Shown here piece after piece: positions 2,809 through 31,560 of a DNA stretch of 64,000 bases; the first letter of the stretch is position 1, and every line of letters begins with the position of its first letter. The notes beneath the pieces are model-generated. The model made no database searches, was not told the DNA's origin, and worked only from the letters and a program-made list of their open reading frames with translations. Source of the stretch: Isoetes taiwanensis (taxonomy: Eukaryota; Streptophyta; Lycopodiopsida; Isoetales; Isoetaceae); assembly GCA_021234155.1 (NCBI GenBank), contig JAJEKV010000054.1, positions 7,832,655 through 7,896,654 of the forward strand, read 5' to 3'. The translations under genes and the position numbers were made by a program.

Positions 2809-3540
2809 GCAAGAGTGTATCCATGCGGTCGTTGACGATGTGAGCGAGGAACCGCTTCAATTGGTCCGGATTTGGAGCCTAAAGTTCTATTTGTGAGAAT
2901 TCATAAAGCTCCGGCGCTCACGACTTTTACGATTGGGGCCAACAAGTGCTTCAATGGTGGGCGCCAAGAAGGATAATCGACTCGAAAAAGAGCCGGCTCC
3001 CGGGAGCAAAGAGCTTGAAGTGTAGAAAATTTTGGTGCAGCCATAGCAAAGAGCTTGAAAAAAGAACGGTGATGCAAAAAGCCGAGAGCCGAGAACGAGA
3101 GGACTAAGGCAGAGAGACGAAGGTTCGTGGCGCCAAAAAGGGAGGCGAAGGGCATGATGAGTGCTAAACCGCAACCGCTGATGGTGCCAGTGTCGAGATG
3201 CCAAGGAGGCGATTGAGAGGCAAAAATTTGGCTAAGTCCCCAAAACAAAAAAGGGAGAAACAAGGAACGGTGGAGATGAGACGGAGAGAATGATCTGGAT
3301 GTGACAGTGGCAAAAGGACGCACATTAATGTTTGACGGGCGGAAAAAGAAGGAATGGCATTTAATGCCGGGTAACGCCGGTGGGATATCATTAAAACGAA
3401 GGTGTCGGCGGTACCATGGCTAGATATGCGGCGGGAGAAAAGATTCTTCATTTAGAAACAAATTTTGCATTGCAAACACGCTACGGCGAAGGATTTTCTG
3501 GGTGGCTTCTAAACCGGGGCGCTTCGGCCTAAGGCGCCAT
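2809..3540 (-). other. Retrotransposon region with partial minus-strand reading frames
   Basis: Minus-strand ORFs of 105, 140 and 95 codons overlap here in different frames (3204-2887, 3323-2901, 3451-3164). A Ser/Pro/Leu-rich stretch might be an N-terminal exon of the accessory protein, but no domain is recognisable. The junction with the nested LINE lies somewhere near 3450-3560. I could not identify a perfect target-site duplication with the sequence after the LINE poly(A). Confidence 0.3.
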
Positions 3541-3685
3541 CATGAAATTGTCTCGTGGCGCTCCACCATGCAAAAAATCGGCTCCCCCCCATGAAGAGGA
3601 TGAAATCGCGACCGATCGCCGCTCACGTAGGCTTGGTCGCCCGTAAGGGCAAGCCCAACTCGCCCCCTGATCTTCTCATCTGTTT

Positions 3686-4000
3686 ATGGGTCGACCTCTA
3701 CCCCACCTCAGTAGAAAGCCCAAGCAAGCTCGAGCCTTTGCTATTATCATCCACGGTGATCACTATCTCTGTGGCTGGCTGGAAGGCCCGATTGTAGAAC
3801 TCTGGGAAGCTCTTTTGGAGGAGCAATTTTTTCCAGATCATCTCTTCATTGGTGAAGCAGGTGTCACCCCAGAAAACCCTATTGATCTTGTTGAATGCTG
3901 GCTGGGAGACTACATAGGGGATAGAGAGGCAGCTCCTGTTGGAATTTTCGATGTCTATAGCGAATGGGCCATAGGGAAGATTCGGGTTAAACTATACTAG
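3686..4000 (+). CDS. LINE upstream ORF I, member of a triplicated small protein family
   Basis: This 104-aa ORF starts Arg/Pro/Lys-rich. From about residue 17 it carries a pattern shared with the next two ORFs: a hydrophobic strand, then CGWLEGPxxELW, then a run ending FFP, a middle V-E-x-W segment, and a C-terminus IRVKLY before TAG. I know of no family with this sequence. It is absent from the standard ORF1-ORF2 layout of plant L1 elements. About 300 bp without a convincing ORF follow before ORF II. The start codon is simply the first ATG in frame. Inference: a product of the LINE, possibly RNA- or protein-binding. The alternative is a captured host domain that was triplicated. Confidence 0.55.
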   Translation: MGRPLPHLSRKPKQARAFAIIIHGDHYLCGWLEGPIVELWEALLEEQFFPDHLFIGEAGVTPENPIDLVECWLGDYIGDREAAPVGIFDVYSEWAIGKIRVKLY

Positions 4001-4297
4001 AGGCAGTCTTTGCCTCTTTTCTGCTCAGATTGGCTTAGCTCCAACGAAAGTTGCAATCCATCTTTTACATTATTCCTTGAATCTGGCCTTCGATTCTGGA
4101 ATTTGGTCTTTGGTTTCCACGTGTGGGCCTGTCTCCCTTGCATGCAGTGGCTATTCAGTGGGCTCCTTTTGCCTGCCCTCTTTTCTGGAAGGCGGCTCAT
4201 AATATCATCTATGATTAACATCTTTTTTAGGCTCAGGTCAATACACTCTACTGGTCCAATTTATTGATCCTTTTCAGGTACTGTCCTATGGAGATGA

Positions 4298-4663
4298 GTG
4301 CATCCCTGCTTCAAATTCACAGCCTTTCTTTCAATGGGCTGCCCATTGCCTTCGTCTATAGCCAGTTCTAATTCACAAGCTGCTTCTGGGAAATACTTTG
4401 TGATTGGCATTAGGGAGCAAGAAAGTTTCTGCGGCTGGCTGGAAGGCCCACTCTCTGAGCTATGGATGCTGATGGTAGATGAAAAACTTTTCCCTGCCCT
4501 TTTCTTTACGAAAGCAGCAAGCAGCTCATCCTTTCATCCTGTTGCCACTGTTCTTGAATGGAAAATTGTTTTTCTAGGGGCTGATCAACCCTGCTCCTCA
4601 ACATTTAGGCTGTTCTTCCCAGCTTTGGCTGATCACATCACTCTAGAAGTTTACAGAGCCTAA
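4298..4663 (+). CDS. LINE upstream ORF II, paralogue of ORF I
   Basis: The ORF is 121 aa. After a Ser-rich leader of about 30 residues it has a hydrophobic strand, then FCGWLEGPLSELW, then DEKLFP, then VLEWK, a Phe-rich stretch and a C-terminus ITLEVYRA. The order and spacing match ORF I closely, with near identity in the CGWLEGP..ELW core. It ends 32 bases before the ATG of ORF III, giving a compact polycistronic arrangement. I do not recognise the family. The conserved protein motif between ORFs that are no longer similar as DNA suggests past selection on the protein. Confidence 0.55.
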   Translation: MHPCFKFTAFLSMGCPLPSSIASSNSQAASGKYFVIGIREQESFCGWLEGPLSELWMLMVDEKLFPALFFTKAASSSSFHPVATVLEWKIVFLGADQPCSSTFRLFFPALADHITLEVYRA

Positions 4664-4695
4664 CTGGGTCAGCCCCTCTTAAATGATTTCCCACC

Positions 4696-5127
4696 ATGGA
4701 CTCCCCACCATCTTTTCTTGACTCCCCTCTCCCTCATGTAATCTCAGTCTCTCCCCCCCTTCCCCTCAGCTCGCCACCCTTTTCTCCCAGATCCCCTAGC
4801 CCTCAACCCTCTGATATTTCAACAGCTAGCTCCCCAGCCTCTACTCGTTCTATTTTCAGATCTATTGTTCTAGTGAATCACTCTCATCTTTTCTGGGGAA
4901 TTCTAAACGGCCCTGTGGGAGAACTTTGGGCTACTGTTCTTGATCACGGTGTTCTACATCAGGATCAATTTCGGTGTTTAGGTGGCTTGGTCATTTTGGG
5001 AGACCAATTAGAGGTTCACAGATCAGTCAGGAACCTTATCTTTGGAGATTACCTAGTAGTTCCAAGGCATTCCTTAGTTGTTCAGTGTGATTTCTTTGAC
5101 GCTGAGTTCTTATTGGAGCTTTACTAG
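4696..5127 (+). CDS. LINE upstream ORF III, Pro/Ser-rich leader plus paralogous domain
   Basis: This ORF has 143 aa. The first 50 residues are Pro/Ser-rich and probably disordered. The rest repeats the ORF I/II pattern in diverged form: LFWGILNGPVGELW, a His/Leu segment where the others have FFP, then LIFGDYLVVP, and a C-terminus FLLELY before TAG. The stop codon (5125-5127) is followed directly by the ATG of LINE ORF1 (5128), so ORF1 could be translated by termination-reinitiation. The function is unknown. It is the most diverged of the three copies. Confidence 0.55.
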   Translation: MDSPPSFLDSPLPHVISVSPPLPLSSPPFSPRSPSPQPSDISTASSPASTRSIFRSIVLVNHSHLFWGILNGPVGELWATVLDHGVLHQDQFRCLGGLVILGDQLEVHRSVRNLIFGDYLVVPRHSLVVQCDFFDAEFLLELY

Positions 5128-6570
5128 ATGGAGAAAGCTCATCCAGAAAGGATCCCTATGGAAGGAACTAATGTTAGAACATATGCTCAGGTTTCTGCTC
5201 CAACTATAATGACGACTACTACTGGCAAAGGGAAGATAGTCCCTAGCCCCCAAGGAAAAGTTTCCCTTCATACTGCAGATGTGGCTGATAAAATCCGTTA
5301 TTTCGAGAAATTTGGTTTGATTGGTAAGGTTTGCAGGGGCCACCCAAGCAGGATCGAAATCAAGAAAACTCTGGAAAGAGTTTGCAGGGCTAAAACTGAG
5401 ATTAAAGTCCAAGTTCTTGGGAACACCTACTTCCTCCTAACTGCTGCCACCACGAGAGAGGTTGATGCTCTATTTCGTAAAGGTTTGATCTCTACTCCAA
5501 ATGGGCAAGTGTTCCTGCAAAAATATCGGGCAGAATTCCGAGCTTTTAAGCCCGATGCTCTCTACTACCCAATCTGGATCTCTCTTTCTGATCTGAGTCC
5601 AGAATATTGGAATGAGCAAAGTTTTAAGCTGATTGCCTCTAGGCTGGGAGAGTACGTGTGCATGGACAGTAGGCTTGATGAGGCCCCCAAGATTTGTATT
5701 TCAGTTGATCTTCTTAAGCCTATACCCGAATCTATCCAATTCTCTGGATACTTTGATGAAGACATCAACTTTCAGATTTTAGCAACAGGTTTGCCGATCC
5801 CATGTGCAGTGTGTGGGGTTAGATTGCATGCAGGTGTTAACTGTTCTGTGGACAATCAATGTCCTATCTCTGGATCCCATGTTCCCTTAGAAGGACAAAC
5901 TAATGTTGCAGTCGAGGACGTTGTTGCTATGGTTTTGACAGGCCCAAGATGTACTAGGGAGAAAGGGGAATGTTCCAGGTCTGCCCAAGATGCTACCCCT
6001 GTTGTTCACGATGCTGTTGAACTTCATGGCATGGTTCCTTCTCTCTTCCAGCACGTGGAAAATGCTCTCTCTGCTGGGGCCCCACAGGATATTAATGCTG
6101 GATCCTTTGACCAGTCAAAGATCTTTGAGCAGACAAGGACTCCAAACTTGATCATTGCTAAATCTACTCAATCATCCCCTGCTTTGACTAGTCAAAAAGA
6201 TGACATGGAAAGCTTATCCCCTGCTTTGACTGATCAAAAAGATGACGTGGAAATCTCTCTTGTGACTCATACATGGTTGACCAGTCAATGTGATGATGTG
6301 GCTAATAAGCTGTTTGCAACCAAGTGCACTGACATGAGTAACAGGGCCGATTTGGCTAACCACCTGACTGCAATCAAGAGTGATGCTATGGTGCATAACA
6401 TGGAATCCAATACTGCTGACATGGACAACAAATTGGCTACTCATGTTGATCCAACCCATGGCTCTCTGTCCAATCTCAAGGCTGGCCTGGCTGATAAGAT
6501 GGAGACAGAGGATTGTGCCACTAATGTGAAGAATCCAACCATTGGCAACGCCACACGATGGGGTTACTGA
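5128..6570 (+). CDS. LINE ORF1 protein, DUF4283-like with zinc knuckle
   Basis: The 480-aa protein corresponds to the nucleic-acid-binding ORF1p/gag-like protein of plant L1 elements. Residues about 50-190 resemble DUF4283, with the characteristic IWISLSDLSPEYWNEQS stretch. A zinc knuckle CAVCGVRLHAGVNC (CX2CX4HX4C) follows at about residues 227-240. The C-terminal third is low-complexity, with repeated Q-K-D-D and A-D-x-x-N-K-L units. The start at 5128 immediately follows the stop of ORF III. ORF2 begins about 1.3 kb downstream, an unusually long gap that holds small tandem repeats. The product would package LINE RNA in the cytoplasm or nucleus. The frame is intact. Confidence 0.75.
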   Translation: MEKAHPERIPMEGTNVRTYAQVSAPTIMTTTTGKGKIVPSPQGKVSLHTADVADKIRYFEKFGLIGKVCRGHPSRIEIKKTLERVCRAKTEIKVQVLGNTYFLLTAATTREVDALFRKGLISTPNGQVFLQKYRAEFRAFKPDALYYPIWISLSDLSPEYWNEQSFKLIASRLGEYVCMDSRLDEAPKICISVDLLKPIPESIQFSGYFDEDINFQILATGLPIPCAVCGVRLHAGVNCSVDNQCPISGSHVPLEGQTNVAVEDVVAMVLTGPRCTREKGECSRSAQDATPVVHDAVELHGMVPSLFQHVENALSAGAPQDINAGSFDQSKIFEQTRTPNLIIAKSTQSSPALTSQKDDMESLSPALTDQKDDVEISLVTHTWLTSQCDDVANKLFATKCTDMSNRADLANHLTAIKSDAMVHNMESNTADMDNKLATHVDPTHGSLSNLKAGLADKMETEDCATNVKNPTIGNATRWGY

Positions 6571-6647
6571 CCCTCCAATCATTGTCAATAGTGAAAGTGA
6601 TTTGGCAATAAAACCCCGTGCTACACATCTTTGATTTAGCCCTTGGC

Positions 6648-6800
6648 TCAAAGGATTGTGACAATAACAAGAAGACGACTCTTCCGACCATTGACAATGC
6701 CGCCACCGATGGGTTCACAAAGAAAGGATTGTGACACTAACAAGAAGACGACTCACGACCGACCATTGACAATGCCCCACGATGGGTTCACAGCCCCTCC
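6648..6800 (+). repeat. Two-copy tandem repeat, about 70-75 bp
   Basis: Each unit begins AAGGATTGTGACA, then AACAAGAAGACGACTC, then ACCATTGACAATGC, then GATGGGTTCACA. The two copies differ by a few bases. A partial related copy is seen at the end of ORF1 (CCATTGGCAACGCCACACGA). Confidence 0.65.
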
Positions 6801-7675
6801 AACCATCGTCAATAGTGAAACTCCGGGGACAAGCTTGTAGATGGGGAGGTTGAACAATTGCCAAGGGCAGGCGTGGCTGCCCAAGAATCCTCCCCTTGAA
6901 ATGGATGCATTCACGCCCAAGATACTAACGCTGGAGGAAGAAGAAAGGGAAAAAATAGGTTGAGATGGGGGAAAATCACGGAGAGGAAGGTGTGGTGGAT
7001 CGAATCAAATCCGGTCAGAAGCTTTTGCGGAACCAAAAGTTGGTTACCTTTGATCTCTAATGGAAGGTCCAGCTTCAAGAAGAGGTATCGTCCCAGGACC
7101 TCGCAAACACTGGAGGTTAGTCGGTCATTCTTATTTCTGTTTTGGGTGGGGCAGCAAGTCTTTGTAGACACGGATATGCTAGTGCTTCAATATGGGTAAA
7201 CAAGATCTCATTGTAAGGTTTACCGGATGGATTGGGTTAGCTTCAGGAAAGTTGGTAATGGGAATGAAGGTACAACAGAGTTTTTAAGGCAGGTTTTTTG
7301 GCTTCAGATTGAGCGGTAATGGGAGTCATGATACAGTAGATTTCCTTATGCAGGTTTTATATGTTATGCAAACTAAAGTTTATACAAACTAGGTGGGTAA
7401 TCCCCCCAAGTTTTGATATTTCTATTATCGGATAGCCTACCAACTATCTATATGCGGAATGTATACATTAAATATATCTACTTTTGCCTACATCTTCAAT
7501 GTATTCTTGCATAACACGGCAATGACAAGTCATATTAAAATGATCAATAAGCATGCAAGCAACAAAGATGGGAATCTGTATCAAAGGGTCCATACAAACA
7601 AAGGAATTGTTGAGTCAATTGAAGAGCCAACACTCCAAAAATATGACGGGCCTAGTCTATTACAGTTAAAAAAGA

Positions 7676-7806
7676 AAAACAAATGCCATCCTAAGCCAAA
7701 CACTACGTTGTTTTGGTATGTAAGTCATGGCAGGTACATGGAAAACAAATGCCATCCTAAGCCAAGTACTACCTTGTATTGGTGTATAAGTCATGCAGGT
7801 GCATGG
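7676..7806 (+). repeat. 66-bp tandem duplication
   Basis: AAATGCCATCCTAAGCCAA occurs at 7681 and again at 7747, followed each time by a similar TTGGTRTRTAAGTCATG stretch. The 66-bp period keeps the reading frame. Confidence 0.7.
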
Positions 7807-7868
7807 CAGTTAGGGCAGGTAAAAGTTCTGTCAGATAGGGTATGGTACCTTCAAGTAAACAACCACCA

Positions 7869-10800
7869 ATGAAGGTGATATCATGGAACTTGAGGGGGAT
7901 CAAGGGGACATTAAAACGAGCTAGGGTACTTGCGGCAATAAGGTCAATGGCAGCTGATGTCATTCTTCTCCAGGAACATAGGCTGTCGGATTTTGAAGCT
8001 AGATCTTTGGGAACTTGGGTAGGGGGGCAATATGACTCGTTCACATGCACAGCTCAAGGCACAAAAGGGGGTACTCTCTCTTGTGGAGGGGCCAAAATCT
8101 TTGTACTCAATTCCGGGGCACAAGCGGGAGATGGCGGCGGGTGATTTTGAGACACAGAGTTGTAAGTGGGGTCTTCTCAACATCTACGCTTCTAACAAGC
8201 CTGCAGAAAGGGCCATAATGTGGAAAGAGATTGAGACTTGGATCCTACAGCAACAAGTTGAAAATTGGCTATTGGGGGGAGACCTAAACATGACCGATAT
8301 CTGGGATCAGAAAATCGGACTTCATAGGAACCTGTCAGCTGAAGAGAATGCTTCATGGAACTCCTTACTTGTCAATGTGGGCTTTGCTCTCATTCCACCT
8401 TCTAACACATCCTTCTCTTGGTCCAATAAGCAGAAGGGACATGATCGGGTTTATTGTTTGCTTGACAGATTCTATTTGGCTAACAAGTCAGCTGGCTTCT
8501 TAGACAGATGTTTTGTTGAAGGGGATTTGGCTTTCACCCAGTCTGACCATGTCCCGCAAAAGCTCACCTTCGAGGATGCTCCCACGACTAGGCGGTCTGG
8601 TAATGTCCCCTTCAAATTTAATACCTCTCTAATAGGGAAGTCAGCATTTTGTGATGCATTCCGAGCCTTCTTAGTGTCCCATCCTCAGGAGAATGGGTTG
8701 CCAAGTATGAAAGCATGGATTCAGTTGGTCGGGGGGATTAAGGCTTGGATTAAAAATTGGGGACGAGATAGGGCGCGACAGTTTAAAAGGTCAAAAAATA
8801 CTATATATGACCAACTCAGAATTGCAAAGCAAGAGCTTCTGACAGACCCTTTTAATGTTACCCTTCATTCTTTAGAAGCTGATCTTGAGGGCAGAGCTAA
8901 GGCTATCGAAGAGGAAGAGGCCAGGGGGGCTGCTGTGAGATCCAAAACGAAATGGTATACAGAGGTAGATCATGAGAATTCTAGGCACTTCTTTAGACTT
9001 GCTGGGGCTAGGTTGGCAGAAAACAGTATTACTTCTATCATTGATGATCAACAGAATCGGATTGATTCATATGATGGGATCAGAGCATATGTGAAGGAAA
9101 GTTTTCAACGCATGTTCAAAGAAGACCCCCTTCCCTCCAATTATGACTCTATGCTTCAAAACTGGATGGCAAAAATTCCTTTGGGGGGCAAAATCTCGGA
9201 GAATGACAATAAGTCTTTAATGCGTCATTTGGAGGATGATGAAATCTTCAAAACTCTTTCCTCCCTCGCTTCTGGTAAATCTCCTGGTCCCGATGGTTTT
9301 CCTCCAGAGTTTTTTGTCGAATTTTGGGATCTTCTGGGTCCGGCCTTCCTTCGGGCAATAAGGGGGGCTTGGGAGGCTCGATATCTACACCCAGCTTTGT
9401 CCACAGGTTTTATCTCTCTGGTCCCAAAGGTTGCTAGGCCACAAAAGCTAAATGAATGGAGACCCATAGCGCTGACTAATGTGCTTTATAAGATCATCAT
9501 GAAGATCATTGCCAATCGACTGAAGCCAATTCTCAATAAGGTTATTGGAAGTGAGCAAACGGCTTTCTTACCAGGTAGGCATATTTTGGATAACTTTATC
9601 GCAGCAAGAGAAGGTCTGCATTGGTGTAAACTCTCCAAACAGAAGTGTGTTTTTTTGAAAATGGATTTTCGCAAGGCATATGATACCCTTCGCTGGAGGG
9701 GACTTCAGGATATTATGCTACATATGGGTTTTGATGCTTCCTTTGTTGACATGTCTTTAGGCTTCAACAAACTTGCTTCAGCATCAGTTTTGATTAATGG
9801 GCAACCCTCGGGCCTGTTTGAACTGAGAAAAGGTGTCAGGCAAGGTTGCCCTCTGGCACCCTATCTGTTTTTTATCATAGCAAATTTACTTACTAAGATG
9901 GTCGAATTCAAGATATCTGAGGGCACTCTCACTGGTCTTCAGCTCCCTGACTCCTCGCAAAAGCTTTCAATCATGCAGTATGCAGATGATACGTTCATCT
10001 TCCTTAGATATGATGACTCTAGCTCTGCAGCCTTCCATGAAATTGTAGATGCATTCGGGAAGTTATCAGGGATAGAGCTCAATGCGGCAAAATGTGCAGT
10101 TATTTGGCCCTTCGATGAGGATGTTGATCCGAGGGTAAAAGACTTTGGATTCCGCATTCTTAAAGATGAAGCCACAAAATTGCTTGGTATTCCCTTGGTC
10201 CTTTCTGATAATCTAAAAGGACTCTGGACCCCTATTCTGGACAACCTGAGAACAATCATCAGGAAGTTTATATGGGGGGGAGGAAGGCATAAGGTGGCAT
10301 GGTCGGTACTGTGTATGGATCGAAAGGATGGTGGGATGGGGTGCAAGGACCTGGAAACTCAAGCTCAGGTACTCGCAGGCAAATACGTGTGGAGAGCACT
10401 TCAAGGTATTACCTCCCCTGCTCTGCACTTTGTCAAATATTGGCTTCAACGTTGTTCTTTAAAAGGTAAGCCTTCTTTACCTAGGGAGGAAATGGGTTCC
10501 TTCTTTTATAGTTACAAAATTGCCCAAGGCACATCTCCAATTATGCGGAAGCTGTTAGAGGCTTGGTTAGAAGTTCAAAGTCTTTTTAAGCCAATGGAAG
10601 CTCCCAGGGAGGCTGGAAAACTGAGCATTTTCTGGAACACTCAGATATGGATGAAAAATAACCTCCCTCTTGCTCTTACACACCCCCGCATTTTTCTTAA
10701 ATGGAGGTCAGCAGGAATCACTAGAGTGGCACATCTTTGGGACGGTGTACGGTGGCTCTCCTGGTCTTGCTTTAAAGAAAAGGTTCAAGGTGCAGGGGAG

Positions 10801-11549
10801 GGTGATAGGAAGATCTACCGAGAAATATGTAGTACTTTGGCTAATCTTTTAGGACAGGAAGGCCCAAGTGACAGATGGGCTTGTAAGCAGGAAGAGAAAT
10901 ATGTTGTCAGTACGATCTACCGCCTTCTCTGTGTTGACTCCCCTCTTAAAGCGGCTGACAGGTTGGGAGTTGATACTGTACAGGCAAAACAACTGCTAGC
11001 TAAGTCATGGACTTCACTATGTTCAAGAAGGTTGCAGTTTTTCAGATGGTTAGCTTTACGGGGGAGGATTGAGCACTATGGAGAGACTCTTCTTGAATGG
11101 GATTCTTCCGTGTGACAGATGCCCGCTTGGATGCAATACCTCGAAACCCTCACTCATTTATTCTTTTGCCCCAAGGTCATGATCTTACGGGATTGGGTGT
11201 GTCCGCCATTGGTACCAACGTTCTACAATGGCCGGGAATCATTATGGCTACTTGATGGAGATGTTATCTCCTGCGTCTCGCTTAACATAGGGTTGTGGAC
11301 AATATGGAAGCATAGATGTGGTATTGCTATGGGGGACAACAATTTTCTTTGGACAAGATGAAGAATACTTTTAACATGGAGGTGGCACTCATGGCTCTTG
11401 CCCATCATCGGAAATATGGGCTCAACTATAACAAGGCTCTAGACAGGATTGGTAAAATTCAAGGATTTTATATGTTCTTTAAGTGTCATTGGTTAGTTGA
11501 GGATGATCTGAGTTCGGAAATGCAAAGGTTAGCTTTATTAATCCCATAA
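7869..11549 (+). pseudogene. LINE ORF2: AP-like endonuclease, reverse transcriptase, zf-RVT (frameshifted)
   Basis: This encodes the enzyme for target-primed reverse transcription. The endonuclease starts MKVISWNLRG at 7869 and includes ILLQEHRL; near 8140 the frame shifts to the long ORF that continues to 11115 with WLLGGDLNM. The RT region shows SGKSPGPDGFPPEFF, WRPIALTNVLYKI, KMDFRKAYDTL, GVRQGCPLAPYLF and the catalytic YADD at 9979-9990. After the RT come a thumb/connection region and LQFFRWLALRGR. At about 11113 the frame breaks again, and the zf-RVT finger (RCPLGC...HLFFCP) and the tail NMEVALMALAHH continue in other frames to 11549. The related LINE tail at 30731-31381 is intact over the same part and confirms the frameshifts. 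The second of the RT core aspartates is present, so only the indels look inactivating. Confidence 0.85.
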
Positions 11550-11600
11550 GTGGGATATATGTATAACACTTTATCTATAAATTAATATAAGATATTCATA

Positions 11601-11605
<5 letters not shown>

Positions 11606-11635
<30 letters not shown>
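11606..11635 (+). other. LINE 3' poly(A) tail
   Basis: A run of 30 A residues directly follows the LINE 3' UTR and marks the 3' junction. The next base resumes the gypsy element sequence. Confidence 0.85.
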
Positions 11636-12141: not shown

Positions 12142-13290
12142 TTAGTCACTATCTGTTGTGTTTGTGTCTGGAACAACATCCGTTTGTTGATTTTCACTTG
12201 TTGTGGTATGAAATGTTTTGAGGCAAAAGCCATTAACCAGTGTAGGTAAGGGAGTTCCATCTAACTCAGCCAGCTGGAAAACGCTGGGTTGCACCACTTG
12301 AACAATTTGATAAGGGCCAAGCCATGAAACTTTAGCTTACCCTAAAAATTTTGTACCGAGAATCATAAAGAAGAACCAAATCTCCTTCTTTGAATGTTTT
12401 TGTCTTCAGACGTTTATCATGTAAAGATTTTTGCAACTGTTATCCATGAAGAACACGAATATAAGCATCCCTTCTAAGTTCATCCAACTGTTCCAATTGA
12501 TAAACCCTTTCTTTGAGTCTTTGCAGGTAGTTATGGGCGGTAGCCGGTTGAAAACGAGAGTTGGAAGGATGTATTCAAACGGCATGAGAGCTTCTTGACC
12601 ATAAACCAATTTGAAAGGAGTGTGACCTGTAGCTATTTTGAAACAAGTATTGTAAGCCCAAAGAATAGTAGGAAGCTTGGTTTGCCAGTCAATGCAAGAA
12701 GCGTCACAAATTTTCTTGAGAATTGTGACCAGAGTTTTGTTGGTGCTTTACTTAAAACCATTCCCTTTGAGGATAGTAAGGTGTGCTCTTGTGATGATGT
12801 ATCGGGGAGATAATCCGTCAGCTCCTTGATGGTATGATTGATAAAATAGACACCACGATCACTGACTAGCTCCGTGGGGCAGCCAAATCGCGTGATGATT
12901 TGTTGATAGATGACCTTGGCTGTGCTTGCCGCAGTGTAATCTGGAAGTGCGCAAGCTTCCGCCCATTTGGTAGTGTAGTCAGTGAGAACCAGAATGTAGC
13001 GGGCACGGGTGTGCCGCGCAGGAGGGTCGATGGGTCCCACAAAATCCATCCCCCATTTGCTGAAGGGAAGTGGCATGGCGACCGGCGTCAAGGGAAGAGC
13101 GTCACGGGCCGTGGGCCGTCCCATACGCTGGCAAGCATCACACGTGCGGGCGTGGGCGTGGGCGTCTTTGAAAAGCGTGGGCCAAAAATAACCAGCAAGA
13201 AGGATTTTGCGTGCCGTGATGTCACCATGAAAATGACCACCACCGAGCCCTTCATGGGCTTCGCAGACAATATCTGGACCTCATGAGGGA
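12142..13290 (-). pseudogene. Ty3/gypsy integrase (pol C-terminal part), degenerate
   Basis: On the minus strand the integrase core shows FSKWGMDFVGPID, VLTDYTTKWAEA (first catalytic Asp) and ELVSDRGVYF (second Asp). Frames then shift within about 60 bases, around a remnant of the Thr-Pro-Tyr-His-Pro-Gln motif and STNKTLVTILKKICDAS. At the place of the third catalytic residue, a TAA stop is read at 12750-12748. Downstream the sequence again reads well: WAYNTCFKIATGHTPF, then LVYGQEALMPFEYI. The end is SWLGPYQIVQVVQPSVF and AELDGTPLPTLVNGF, closing at a TAA at 12144-12142. The last parts are typical of gypsy pol C-termini. No chromodomain is visible. The gene is clearly inactivated. Confidence 0.82.
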
Positions 13291-14383
13291 GAACACAGCG
13301 TCGAAGGATGGTATCCTTACCCTTTTTGTAAAGATGGCCTGCAACCATGGTGTAGTCACGGACCTCGCGGAGAAATTGGTGTCTACGGGATTGTCGCTTG
13401 GCTGGAGAGAGCGTGGCGTCCTCTAGTGGAAGAGCGCCTGTGAGGAGATACTGCTGAAAGTCGTGGAACCAATGTGGTGTTGCCGTGACCAGAAAGAGTT
13501 GAGCGCCAGGAAAGGCGTCTGAGACTCCAGTGGAGGGATCATCTGTGTGGATGCGTGAAAGATAATCCGGAACAACATGAGATTTGCCTGCCTTGTGAAC
13601 AATTTCAAAAGGTGCAAATTTTTGCAGAAGGAGGACCCAACGAGCAATGCGGCCCGTGGGCGTGGATTTGTTGATCAAATAAAGAAGTGCTTGGTGGTCA
13701 ACAAAGAATTTGATCTGACTGCCCAAAAGATAGTGACCAAGCGTTGGACCTGAAAAATTAAACCCAAGGCTTCACGCTTACGTGGCGTAGTAGTTGCGCT
13801 CCAGCATTGAGTTTCCGGGCGTATCGGTTTGGTTTGTCGATTAATGCGATCATATTCTTGAGAAAGAACAGCTCAATCGCAAAACGCCGACATCTACATG
13901 GACATGAAAGGGCTTGTCCCATTGAGGAGGAACAAGAACCGGGGCCTGAGTAAGTAAAAGCTTCAACTGTTGGAAAAGCATCCGCCTGGGAATTCCAAGC
14001 CCAGGTGGATTCATCACCCGTGAGTTTATGAATGGGATCTCGCAATGGCCGCAAGTCCGGGAATGAAGGTGGAGTAATAATTGACCTTACCCGGAAAGAG
14101 CGTGTCTCCTTGATATTGGTTGGTGCTTGAGCTTTGAGCACACAAACCGATTTTGGCGAGATCCGGTGATACCGCTTTCGACAACGTGTCCTAACATAAC
14201 ACCTGAAGTGACGCAAAAGGTGCATTTCTCGGGATTGAGACTAATGCCGGACTCATCACATTTCTGAAAGACGAGTTCCAATTTATCCAAATGGTCAGCC
14301 ATGGAACTGTAGGCAGAGAAGTCATCTTGAAAATTTTGCAAGAAGGGATTTTCCTTCATAAAATCATGAAAAACTGAGAGCAT
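13088..14383 (-). pseudogene. Ty3/gypsy RT C-terminal half and RNase H
   Basis: The frame beginning at 14383 carries the RT active-site region as FQDDFSAYS, where FVDDF is usual, followed by the palm segment GISLNPEKCTFCVTSG. The sequence then breaks (about 14225-13730) into other frames that still resemble the RT/RNase H connection, and resumes as RNase H: IKFFVDHQALLYLINK, RIARWVLLLQKF and HVVPDYLSRI. The following KGKDTILRRCVLPHE belongs to the linker before integrase (HHCC region). At least two frameshifts separate the parts. Confidence 0.8.
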
Positions 14384-30721: not shown

Positions 30722-31560
30722 CTCTTATACTTGACTCATAGTTGGCTATATGATGGGCAAAATCAATATAGTGTGAAGAGGATTTATAGGGATTTGTGCC
30801 AAGATACCCCCTTGATAGCTGAGGTAAGGCTTGGGGTTAGTCTGGCAGACACCAAAACCTTACTGTCAAACTCCTGGAAGTCTATCTGTTCTAGGAAGAT
30901 TCAGTTTTTCAGATGGTTAGCTCTTCAAGGTGGATTAAGTACCAAGGAAAGATTGTTTAATAAGGGCATTTCGGTTGACGACAGATGTCCATTGGGCTGT
31001 CAGGTTACTGAATCCGTAGTGCATCTCTTCTTCTGTCCCCGGATTGCTGAATTTTGGCAGTGGGTTTGTCCTATTATTGGTATCATGTTAAGCCAACTGG
31101 TCTGGCCCGATCCGGTTTTCATCACGGATCGCTGCTGTATCGAAGCCTCTCTGGTGAATCTGACACTTTGGGTTATCTGGAAGCATCGTTGTGATGTGGC
31201 CTTAGGTGGTCAAAGGATCTCCATAGAGAAGTTAAAAAACTCTTTCAATATGGAGGTTGCTCTGATGGCTCTATCTCATCATAAGAAGAAAGGCATGAAA
31301 TACAACAAAGGACTTGATAAAGTGGGAACCTTGGTAGGGTTCTATTCATACTTCAGGTGCCATTGGGTTGATAACGAGTAAGTAAGATCTTCTGGTTGTG
31401 AAGCTGGTAGCTTTTACATCCGGAGTTGACAATTGGTGGACCCTGTACTGGAATGGAGCTGGCTCCCTCTATAGTACCCACTTTCTGGCGAAGAAAGAAG
31501 ATTTTCCTTATAGTATCCTTTAGGGGGGAAGACGAGTGGATGCCCTCTCCTGTTCTTGTA
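30722..31560 (+). mobile_element. 5'-truncated LINE tail (zf-RVT region)
   Basis: An open frame (30731-31381, 216 aa) matches the C-terminal end of the LINE at 10870-11520. It includes IQFFRWLALQGGL, the intact finger DRCPLGCQVTESVVHLFFCP, LWVIWKHRCDVALGG and SFNMEVALMALSHHKK. The match begins abruptly at about 30722, as expected for incomplete target-primed reverse transcription. About 170 bases of 3' UTR follow; no clear poly(A) tail remains. It is a different subfamily from the nested LINE. It shows what the frameshifted zf-RVT region of that copy should look like. Confidence 0.8.

Follow-up and report, generated by a model that had tools for sequence, protein, structure and literature searches.

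RESULTS

An L1-type LINE with three additional ORFs upstream of ORF1

The window, by which we mean the whole 64,000-nucleotide stretch of Isoetes taiwanensis DNA analyzed here, contains a copy of an L1-type LINE (Table 1). The 5' end of this copy is approximate, as it is based on the match to a related copy, L009 (L numbers denote other elements in the genome), which starts near window position 3518. A poly(A) tract at 11606-11635 was read from the sequence, and a 9-nt repeat with 1 mismatch is a weak candidate for the target-site duplication. The element is no longer intact: a frameshift interrupts ORF2, and the 480-aa ORF1 falls short of that in several relatives, where it spans 563 to 790 aa from stop to stop (L010, L013-L016, and L021). 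The zinc knuckle residues of ORF1 (C226, C229, H234, and C239) are invariant in all eight aligned ORF1 proteins.

The endonuclease (EN) and reverse transcriptase (RT) predicted in ORF2, together with the predicted DUF4283/CCHC ORF1, identify the window element as an L1-clade LINE. An L1-clade LINE would be expected to have two ORFs only, and here three further conserved ORFs lie in series. Because the RT, EN, and ORF1 features are all present, we treat the element as a variant of the L1-type LINE.

The original prediction placed three small ORFs upstream of ORF1, and their positions were confirmed (3686-4000, 104 aa; 4298-4663, 121 aa; and 4696-5127, 143 aa; referred to below as ORFs a, b, and c). 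The start assigned to ORF b at 4298 is a GTG codon; the conserved start is the ATG at 4334, which gives a product of 109 aa.

Table 1. Features of the LINE copy in the window and the evidence for each
Feature	Position	Strand	Evidence
L1-type LINE copy	3500..11635 (5' end approximate)	+	DUF4283, Exo_endo_phos, and RVT_1 Pfam matches in order
5'-leader hairpin region	3630..3655	+	30 nt 5' of ORF a start; divergent version of stem kept in related copies
Small ORF a, 104 aa	3686..4000	+	Median dN/dS 0.093; AlphaFold pLDDT 87.3, pTM 0.75
Small ORF b, 109 aa from conserved ATG	4334..4663	+	Median dN/dS 0.199
Small ORF c, 143 aa	4696..5127	+	Median dN/dS 0.217; AlphaFold pLDDT ~95 (residues 51-143), pTM 0.61
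TAGATG, ORF c stop abutting ORF1 start	5125..5130	+	Abutting or 1-nt overlap in 13 of 23 junctions read
ORF1, 480 aa, DUF4283 and CX2CX4HX4C zinc knuckle	5128..6570	+	Pfam PF14111, E 5.5e-14
ORF2 start, endonuclease N-terminal piece cut by frameshift	7842..8144	+	Exo_endo_phos PF03372, E 3.3e-6
ORF2 remainder with reverse transcriptase	8032..11115	+	RVT_1 PF00078, E 1.6e-32

Elsewhere in the window, a related LINE fragment at 30734-30952 encodes the C-terminal part of an RT (51% amino-acid identity over 66 residues). On the minus strand, ORF translations at 12633-13726 resemble, by reading alone, a Ty3/gypsy LTR retrotransposon in its integrase and RNase H part, and a 351-aa ORF at 1225-2280, just upstream of the LINE, is rich in coiled-coil-like Gln/Leu stretches.

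The predicted products of ORFs a, b, and c are paralogues

The motif that had been proposed as common to the three ORFs is present exactly (CGWLEGPIVELW, CGWLEGPLSELW, and WGILNGPVGELW), and the C termini are KLY, EVYRA, and ELY, as claimed. The family signature resembles (C/W)GWLxGxxxxLW. The accompanying claim that the DNA of the ORFs is no longer obviously similar is accurate except for a 22-nt block around GWLEGP, which is 95% identical between a and b, so that the similarity is not wholly unrecognizable at this level.

The protein pattern common to a, b, and c exceeds chance both in Smith-Waterman shuffles and in profile-profile comparison. Smith-Waterman z values were 20.3 (a-b), 7.1 (a-c), and 11.2 (b-c), with the observed score reached by 0 of 1000 shuffles in each case. 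When separate alignments of the three were compared with hhalign, the probabilities were 99.6% (a-b, E = 5e-25), 94.4% (a-c, E = 9e-8), and 90.8% (b-c, E = 1e-6), and unfiltered blastp within a six-protein set gave E values of ~1e-12 (a-b), 1e-6 (b-c), and 3e-4 (a-c). From these scores, we conclude that ORFs a, b, and c are, at the level of sequence comparison, true paralogues. None of the three matched an entry in Pfam, NCBIfam, or PHROGs above the curated cut-off or with a credible E-value, a PDB profile search with them returned nothing above chance level, and profile comparison of the small ORFs with ORF1 found no homology.

AlphaFold predicted one compact beta-beta-alpha-beta-alpha-beta-beta domain shared by a and c, in runs that have many alignment rows in common and are not fully independent. 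In the predicted structure of the ORF a protein, a short basic/Pro tail accompanies an acidic domain; that of ORF c begins with a Pro/Ser-rich tail of ~50 aa, which was predicted with low confidence and is probably disordered, followed by the same domain as in a. Each family protein consists of a variable tail plus a predicted domain of ~85-95 residues. The tails of a are mildly basic and those of b and c are Pro/Ser-rich, and pI values for most b and c sequences cover nearly the whole protein because the tail was left attached. A structural search with the predicted a/c domain yielded no convincing match. The C-terminal (H1) domains of KCTD1, KCTD8, and KCTD12 were considered as kin; Z scores this low are common by chance, a PDB sequence search gave no match, and these comparisons offer no basis for kinship with the KCTD H1 domains.

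Other copies in the genome carry the small ORFs in the same order

The host genome (1.66 Gb) contains the plant-type telomere repeat, with 207 forward and 195 reverse exact matches to (TTTAGGG)4 and 0 in a control. When this genome was searched with the DNA of positions 3686-5127, at least 70 matching pieces were obtained and grouped into at least 39 places including the window (40 of 69 candidates scored). Among the matches listed, the a-b spacer was covered in the five closest copies only, and the other matches were to ORF a or to the b-c block. Protein searches were analyzed at the best 150 places per protein (of 2249, 1164, and 316 first-look candidates for a, b, and c, respectively), and all counts of a, b, c, and ORF1 neighbors are therefore lower bounds.

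The prediction that other genomic copies would carry these ORFs was borne out, and the order is the same. ORF b was found within 3 kb of c at at least 114 of the 150 c places, on the same strand and upstream in all 114, with a distance between starts of 267-745 nt in 113 of these 114 listed pairs. At at least 36 of the 150 b places, ORF a lay within 3 kb, in every case on the strand of b and upstream of it. Downstream of at least 37 of the 150 ORF a places, a b or c was among the matches listed; many of the other ORF a places may represent a one-ORF family or have b and c beyond those matches.

The presence of the family in all 28 loci that we compared is circular, because it was a match to a, b, or c that led to their selection. 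A count led by ORF1 is free of this circularity. Among the 150 ORF1 places nearest to that of the window, at least 122 have a listed a, b, or c upstream on the same strand (at least 96 with c, 96 with b, 41 with a, 79 with b and c, and 25 with all three). The remaining 28 had no small ORF among the matches listed, and a family ORF on the wrong side or strand of ORF1 within 3 kb was found at 0 of the 150 places among these matches.

The copies are not riddled with stops. An internal stop was absent from 119 of the best 150 b places, 112 of the best 150 c places, and 56 of the first 68 of the best 150 a places (a hand count of those 68 rows), and present at 31 of the 150 b and 38 of the 150 c places. 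Open frames persist down to ~40% identity, and some element copies have broken small ORFs. When L010 and L011 were compared, 96-100% identical blocks alternated with 78-94% blocks holding many small gaps (element positions ~2050-2600 and 3000-3400). Gene conversion, or long-read sequence left unpolished, would look like this, and a frameshift in a copy is therefore not necessarily genuine decay.

The number of family ORFs was determined with an HMM seeded with a, b, and c, which was run on 29 elements (the window copy and the 28 loci chosen as family hits). Three family ORFs or their remains were found in 18 of the 29, including L032 and L036, in which the three are packed within ~1.1 kb. L012, L018, and L022 contain two family ORFs and a third that is decayed or cut short, L016 and L026 contain two, L033-L035 contain two (b and c), and L029-L031 contain one. 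The family is wider than the original prediction held, as LINE families of the same genome carry one, two, or three of these ORFs. In the sequences compared, the order a-b-c is kept where all are present in window-type elements. These searches show that the plant L1-type LINEs of this genome include a radiation that encodes one to three tandem small-protein paralogues upstream of ORF1.

A LINE family with a single small ORF looks abundant (G000:C968:1263081, with many similar places, and L029-L031). This single ORF is ~92 aa long and ~40-49% identical to ORF a, and it has no tail in L029 and L031.

The small ORFs evolve as protein-coding genes

A dN/dS test had been suggested for the three ORFs, and the ratios of all three are well below 1. 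Pairwise NG86 values, obtained from copies chosen for open frames, had medians of 0.093 for a (16 sequences; 78 of 120 pairs usable), 0.199 for b (15 sequences; 80 of 105 pairs), 0.217 for c (14 sequences; 70 of 91 pairs), and 0.147 for the N-terminal part of ORF1 (13 sequences; 52 of 78 pairs), the c value being raised because 3 of the 14 c sequences (L014, L023, and L025) lack a normal N terminus. The pairs that were dropped (42 of 120 for a, 25 of 105 for b, 21 of 91 for c, and 26 of 78 for ORF1) were saturated or had a dS of 0.02 or less. In addition, pN was smaller than pS in 120 of 120 a, 104 of 105 b, 91 of 91 c, and 78 of 78 ORF1 pairs, and changes are most frequent at third codon positions.

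The median DNA identity in 28 pairs of eight elements was 67% for a, 65% for b, 74% for c, and 75% for ORF1. For the same pairs, it was 51% in the a-b spacer; the 60 nt preceding ORF a had 58%, and the sequence beyond them 47%. Shuffles gave 42-45%. Substitution patterns of this kind show purifying selection on the small ORFs, at a strength about that on ORF1. ORFs a, b, and c behave as protein-coding genes of the element.

The paralogues are old, and the 5' module probably has a separate history in some elements

Expansion by duplication, a further part of the original prediction, is upheld by a tree of 43 family domains, which shows old paralogues. The b clade has a support of 95 and the c clade 100. 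The a clade (100) also includes the only small ORF of L029, that of L031, and the first of the three in L036, and the last ORFs of L016, L026, and L036 join c (95). The middle ORF of L036 falls beside the a clade (96) and outside the b clade, which indicates that a-b-c is not a universal set. The ORF1 proteins of L016, L036, L035, and L029 are 23-37% identical to that of the window, and the separate b and c clades indicate that the duplications predate the split of elements whose ORF1 proteins are this far diverged.

In the ORF1 tree, L016 and L026 group with L036, L029, and L030 (89), outside the window-type clade (99). The EN tree agrees with this placement of L016 and L026 (99), and the RT tree does not settle where they belong. 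ORF a of these two elements lies inside the window-type a clade (99). Over 279-401 nt, their leader and ORF a are 73-81% identical to window-type copies, with little other DNA match to those copies besides short EN/RT stretches. The pattern is best read as a putative exchange of a 5' module between LINE lineages. L021 and L028 are also placed differently by ORF1 than by EN/RT.

A hairpin motif often precedes ORF a

An 8-bp stem with a GTAG/GTAA-type loop is located ~20-30 nt before the ORF a start in 17 of the 25 leaders scanned; it is absent from L029, L031, and L032. In an alignment of the 17 leaders, which were picked for showing the motif, 91.1% of the cells pair, compared with 16-56% with the partner shifted along the sequence, and the covariation score of 0.207 was reached by 0 of 500 shuffles. 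Two-sided changes occur at one stem pair only (AU 8, UA 6, and UG 2), which every shuffle also reaches. Further pair types were reached by 384 of 500 shuffles, sliding the partner by -1 gave three pairs with two-sided changes, and another stem pair is broken in 8 of the 17 leaders. Single hairpins were not unusually strong in six leaders compared with 300 simple shuffles each: the number of shuffles attaining the best hairpin score was 9 (L020), 14 (L016), 49 (L025), 82 (L026), 108 (L036), and 144 (window), the scanner having chosen another hairpin in L026 and L036. The window's own leader has a different fold at minimum energy. On these results, the case for the hairpin is carried by conservation and position more than by covariation.

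A sister form of the motif, GCAGGCCCYTGTAGAGGGCYTGC, had 19 genome matches with at most 1 mismatch and 0 in a reversed control. In 15 of the 19, a listed ORF a place starts ~20-27 nt downstream; the sixteenth is L024, in which ORF a is frameshifted, and for the remaining three, the matches listed downstream are confined to b or c. The hairpin motif is apparently a dedicated 5' element of these LINEs.

Stop and start codons of adjacent ORFs lie close together

Among the three-ORF copies read, the majority have an ORF c stop that abuts or overlaps the ORF1 start. Of 23 junctions read, 9 have the stop codon of the last small ORF abutting the ORF1 start as TAGATG or TAAATG (window, L012, L015, L020, L021, L023, L024, L025, and L028), and 4 have a 1-nt overlap (L013, L014, L016, and L027). 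In L010, ACG replaces the ATG of ORF1. Gaps between the last small ORF and ORF1 of 1 nt (L032), 2 nt (L033), 11 nt (L035), and 13 nt (L026) were also found, as were overlaps of 8 nt (L034) and 14 nt (L036). The one-ORF elements L029-L031 are without a tight junction, so any coupling is not universal. The gap between b and c, which ranges from 3 to 43 nt where both ends are readable, is 32 nt in the window, 28-43 nt in L010, L012, L015, L020, L021, L024, and L032, 12 nt in L033-L035, and 3 nt in L036. The a-b spacer is ~300 nt long and contains AUGs in the window copy. Each ORF starts at a Met codon of its own and stops immediately past the conserved C terminus in most of the copies that were read.

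By analogy, this stop-start geometry is that of coupled termination-reinitiation, as in SART1 of the silkworm. Such coupling at a stop-start overlap in SART1, and its requirement for RNA structure downstream of the junction, are described in PMC5972666. We propose that the RNA of the window-type element would be translated as an operon-like polycistronic message. Ribosomes would start at ORF a right after the leader, and those terminating at the end of ORF c would reinitiate on ORF1 where TAG and ATG abut. The b-c gaps would also fit reinitiation; passage from a to b would require another step, as plain reinitiation would hardly cross the spacer.

DISCUSSION

According to the original prediction, the products of ORFs a, b, and c are accessory proteins of a LINE lineage and form a family that grew by duplication. 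Its tested parts hold, namely copies with the same order, dN/dS values well below 1, and old paralogues. Since the small proteins have been kept through long evolution, they probably help the element copy itself. The best explanation overall, to which we give an even chance of being correct, combines a polycistronic RNA, reinitiation, and small proteins that would be accessory subunits of the LINE ribonucleoprotein (RNP). Most likely, these proteins would act there with ORF1p, reinitiation would set the proportions of the subunits, and duplication would then have yielded specialized paralogues. A role in the RNP is favored because the last paralogue abuts ORF1, because purifying selection is about as strong as on ORF1, and because paralogues in a fixed order fit a hetero-oligomer. 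A more specific version covering the entire LINE radiation, with a five-cistron operon-like RNA, a reinitiation chain, a new-fold paralogue trio as obligate specialized RNP subunits, and a 5' module (leader, hairpin, and ORF a) exchanged between lineages, is possible but doubtful as a whole.

The main rival explanation is that the proteins are directed at the host, countering plant RNA silencing or another defense and diverging by an arms race. Such a role would suit paralogues that multiplied while their tails diverged, the location of small accessory ORFs 5' of replication genes, and a median dN/dS for b and c about twice that for a. We regard it as unlikely, because all three ORFs are under purifying selection, as their pN and pS counts indicate, unlike the fast change of an arms race, and because no credible match was found in Pfam, PHROGs, or NCBIfam. 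Alternatively, the ORFs could be uORF-like cistrons that meter ORF1 output, with or without a protein acting in trans. The stop-start abutment or overlap at ORF1, the conserved hairpin shortly before ORF a, and the SART1 precedent (PMC5972666) all point in this direction, but a pure uORF needs no amino-acid conservation, and median dN/dS values of 0.09-0.22 together with a predicted folded domain make translation control a distinctly improbable account of the ORFs.

It is very improbable that splicing joins the ORFs, as exons, into a single longer protein with ORF1 at its end. They lie close together on the same strand with short b-c-ORF1 gaps, as exons might, but each has its own Met start and stop in most copies read, and the TAG/ATG abutment would lack an explanation. 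Moreover, a LINE needs an unspliced full-length RNA as its template. The chance that the ORFs are fortuitous, or neutral remnants of an ancient insertion into a single ancestral LINE, is negligible: broken ORFs in some copies and the internal stops at a minority of the best b and c places (31 and 38 of 150) would be in keeping with it, but the dN/dS values well below 1, the third-position excess, the islands of conservation, and frames that stay open to ~40% identity argue against it.

Several consequences follow if this is a conserved and duplicated third protein family. Part of the plant L1 machinery would have been missed, perhaps (and this is a guess) because repeat annotation filters out small 5' ORFs. 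Elements with one, two, or three copies form a natural set for testing protein function, the junctions probably provide an example, from a plant, of coupled reinitiation in an element of cellular origin, and L016 and L026 offer candidate evidence of 5' module exchange between LINE lineages. Within the open-licence literature searched, we found no description of such small ORFs in plant LINEs. The element appears to be an L1-type LINE variant with a protein family absent from Pfam, NCBIfam, and PHROGs.

Plant L1-clade LINEs include Celine of poplar and the lineages Karma, Cin4, BNR, and LINE-CS, and our comparison with this group was made through Celine and a review description. Celine is reported to end in poly(A) and to have two ORFs, of which ORF1 contains DUF4283 and ORF2 encodes an endonuclease and a reverse transcriptase (PMC11288735), and the review of plant transposable elements likewise describes L1 LINEs as having two ORFs (PMC9033089). 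The window element has the same DUF4283 ORF1, EN and RT ORF2, and poly(A) end, and the LINEs described here differ in adding one to three conserved ORFs 5' of ORF1; the stretch before ORF1 is ~1.6 kb in the window element. Human L1 ORF0, located in the 5' UTR, is one antisense ORF specific to primates, whereas ORFs a, b, and c run in the sense direction, are paralogues of one another, and are conserved between elements that diverged deeply. ORF0 has been described as a further small ORF besides ORF1 and ORF2 (PMC4924340). The likeness to SART1 of the silkworm is that a stop codon overlaps or abuts the next start (UAAUG in SART1). The coupling in SART1 joins ORF1 and ORF2, whereas in window-type LINEs, judged from sequence alone, it would join an accessory ORF to ORF1.
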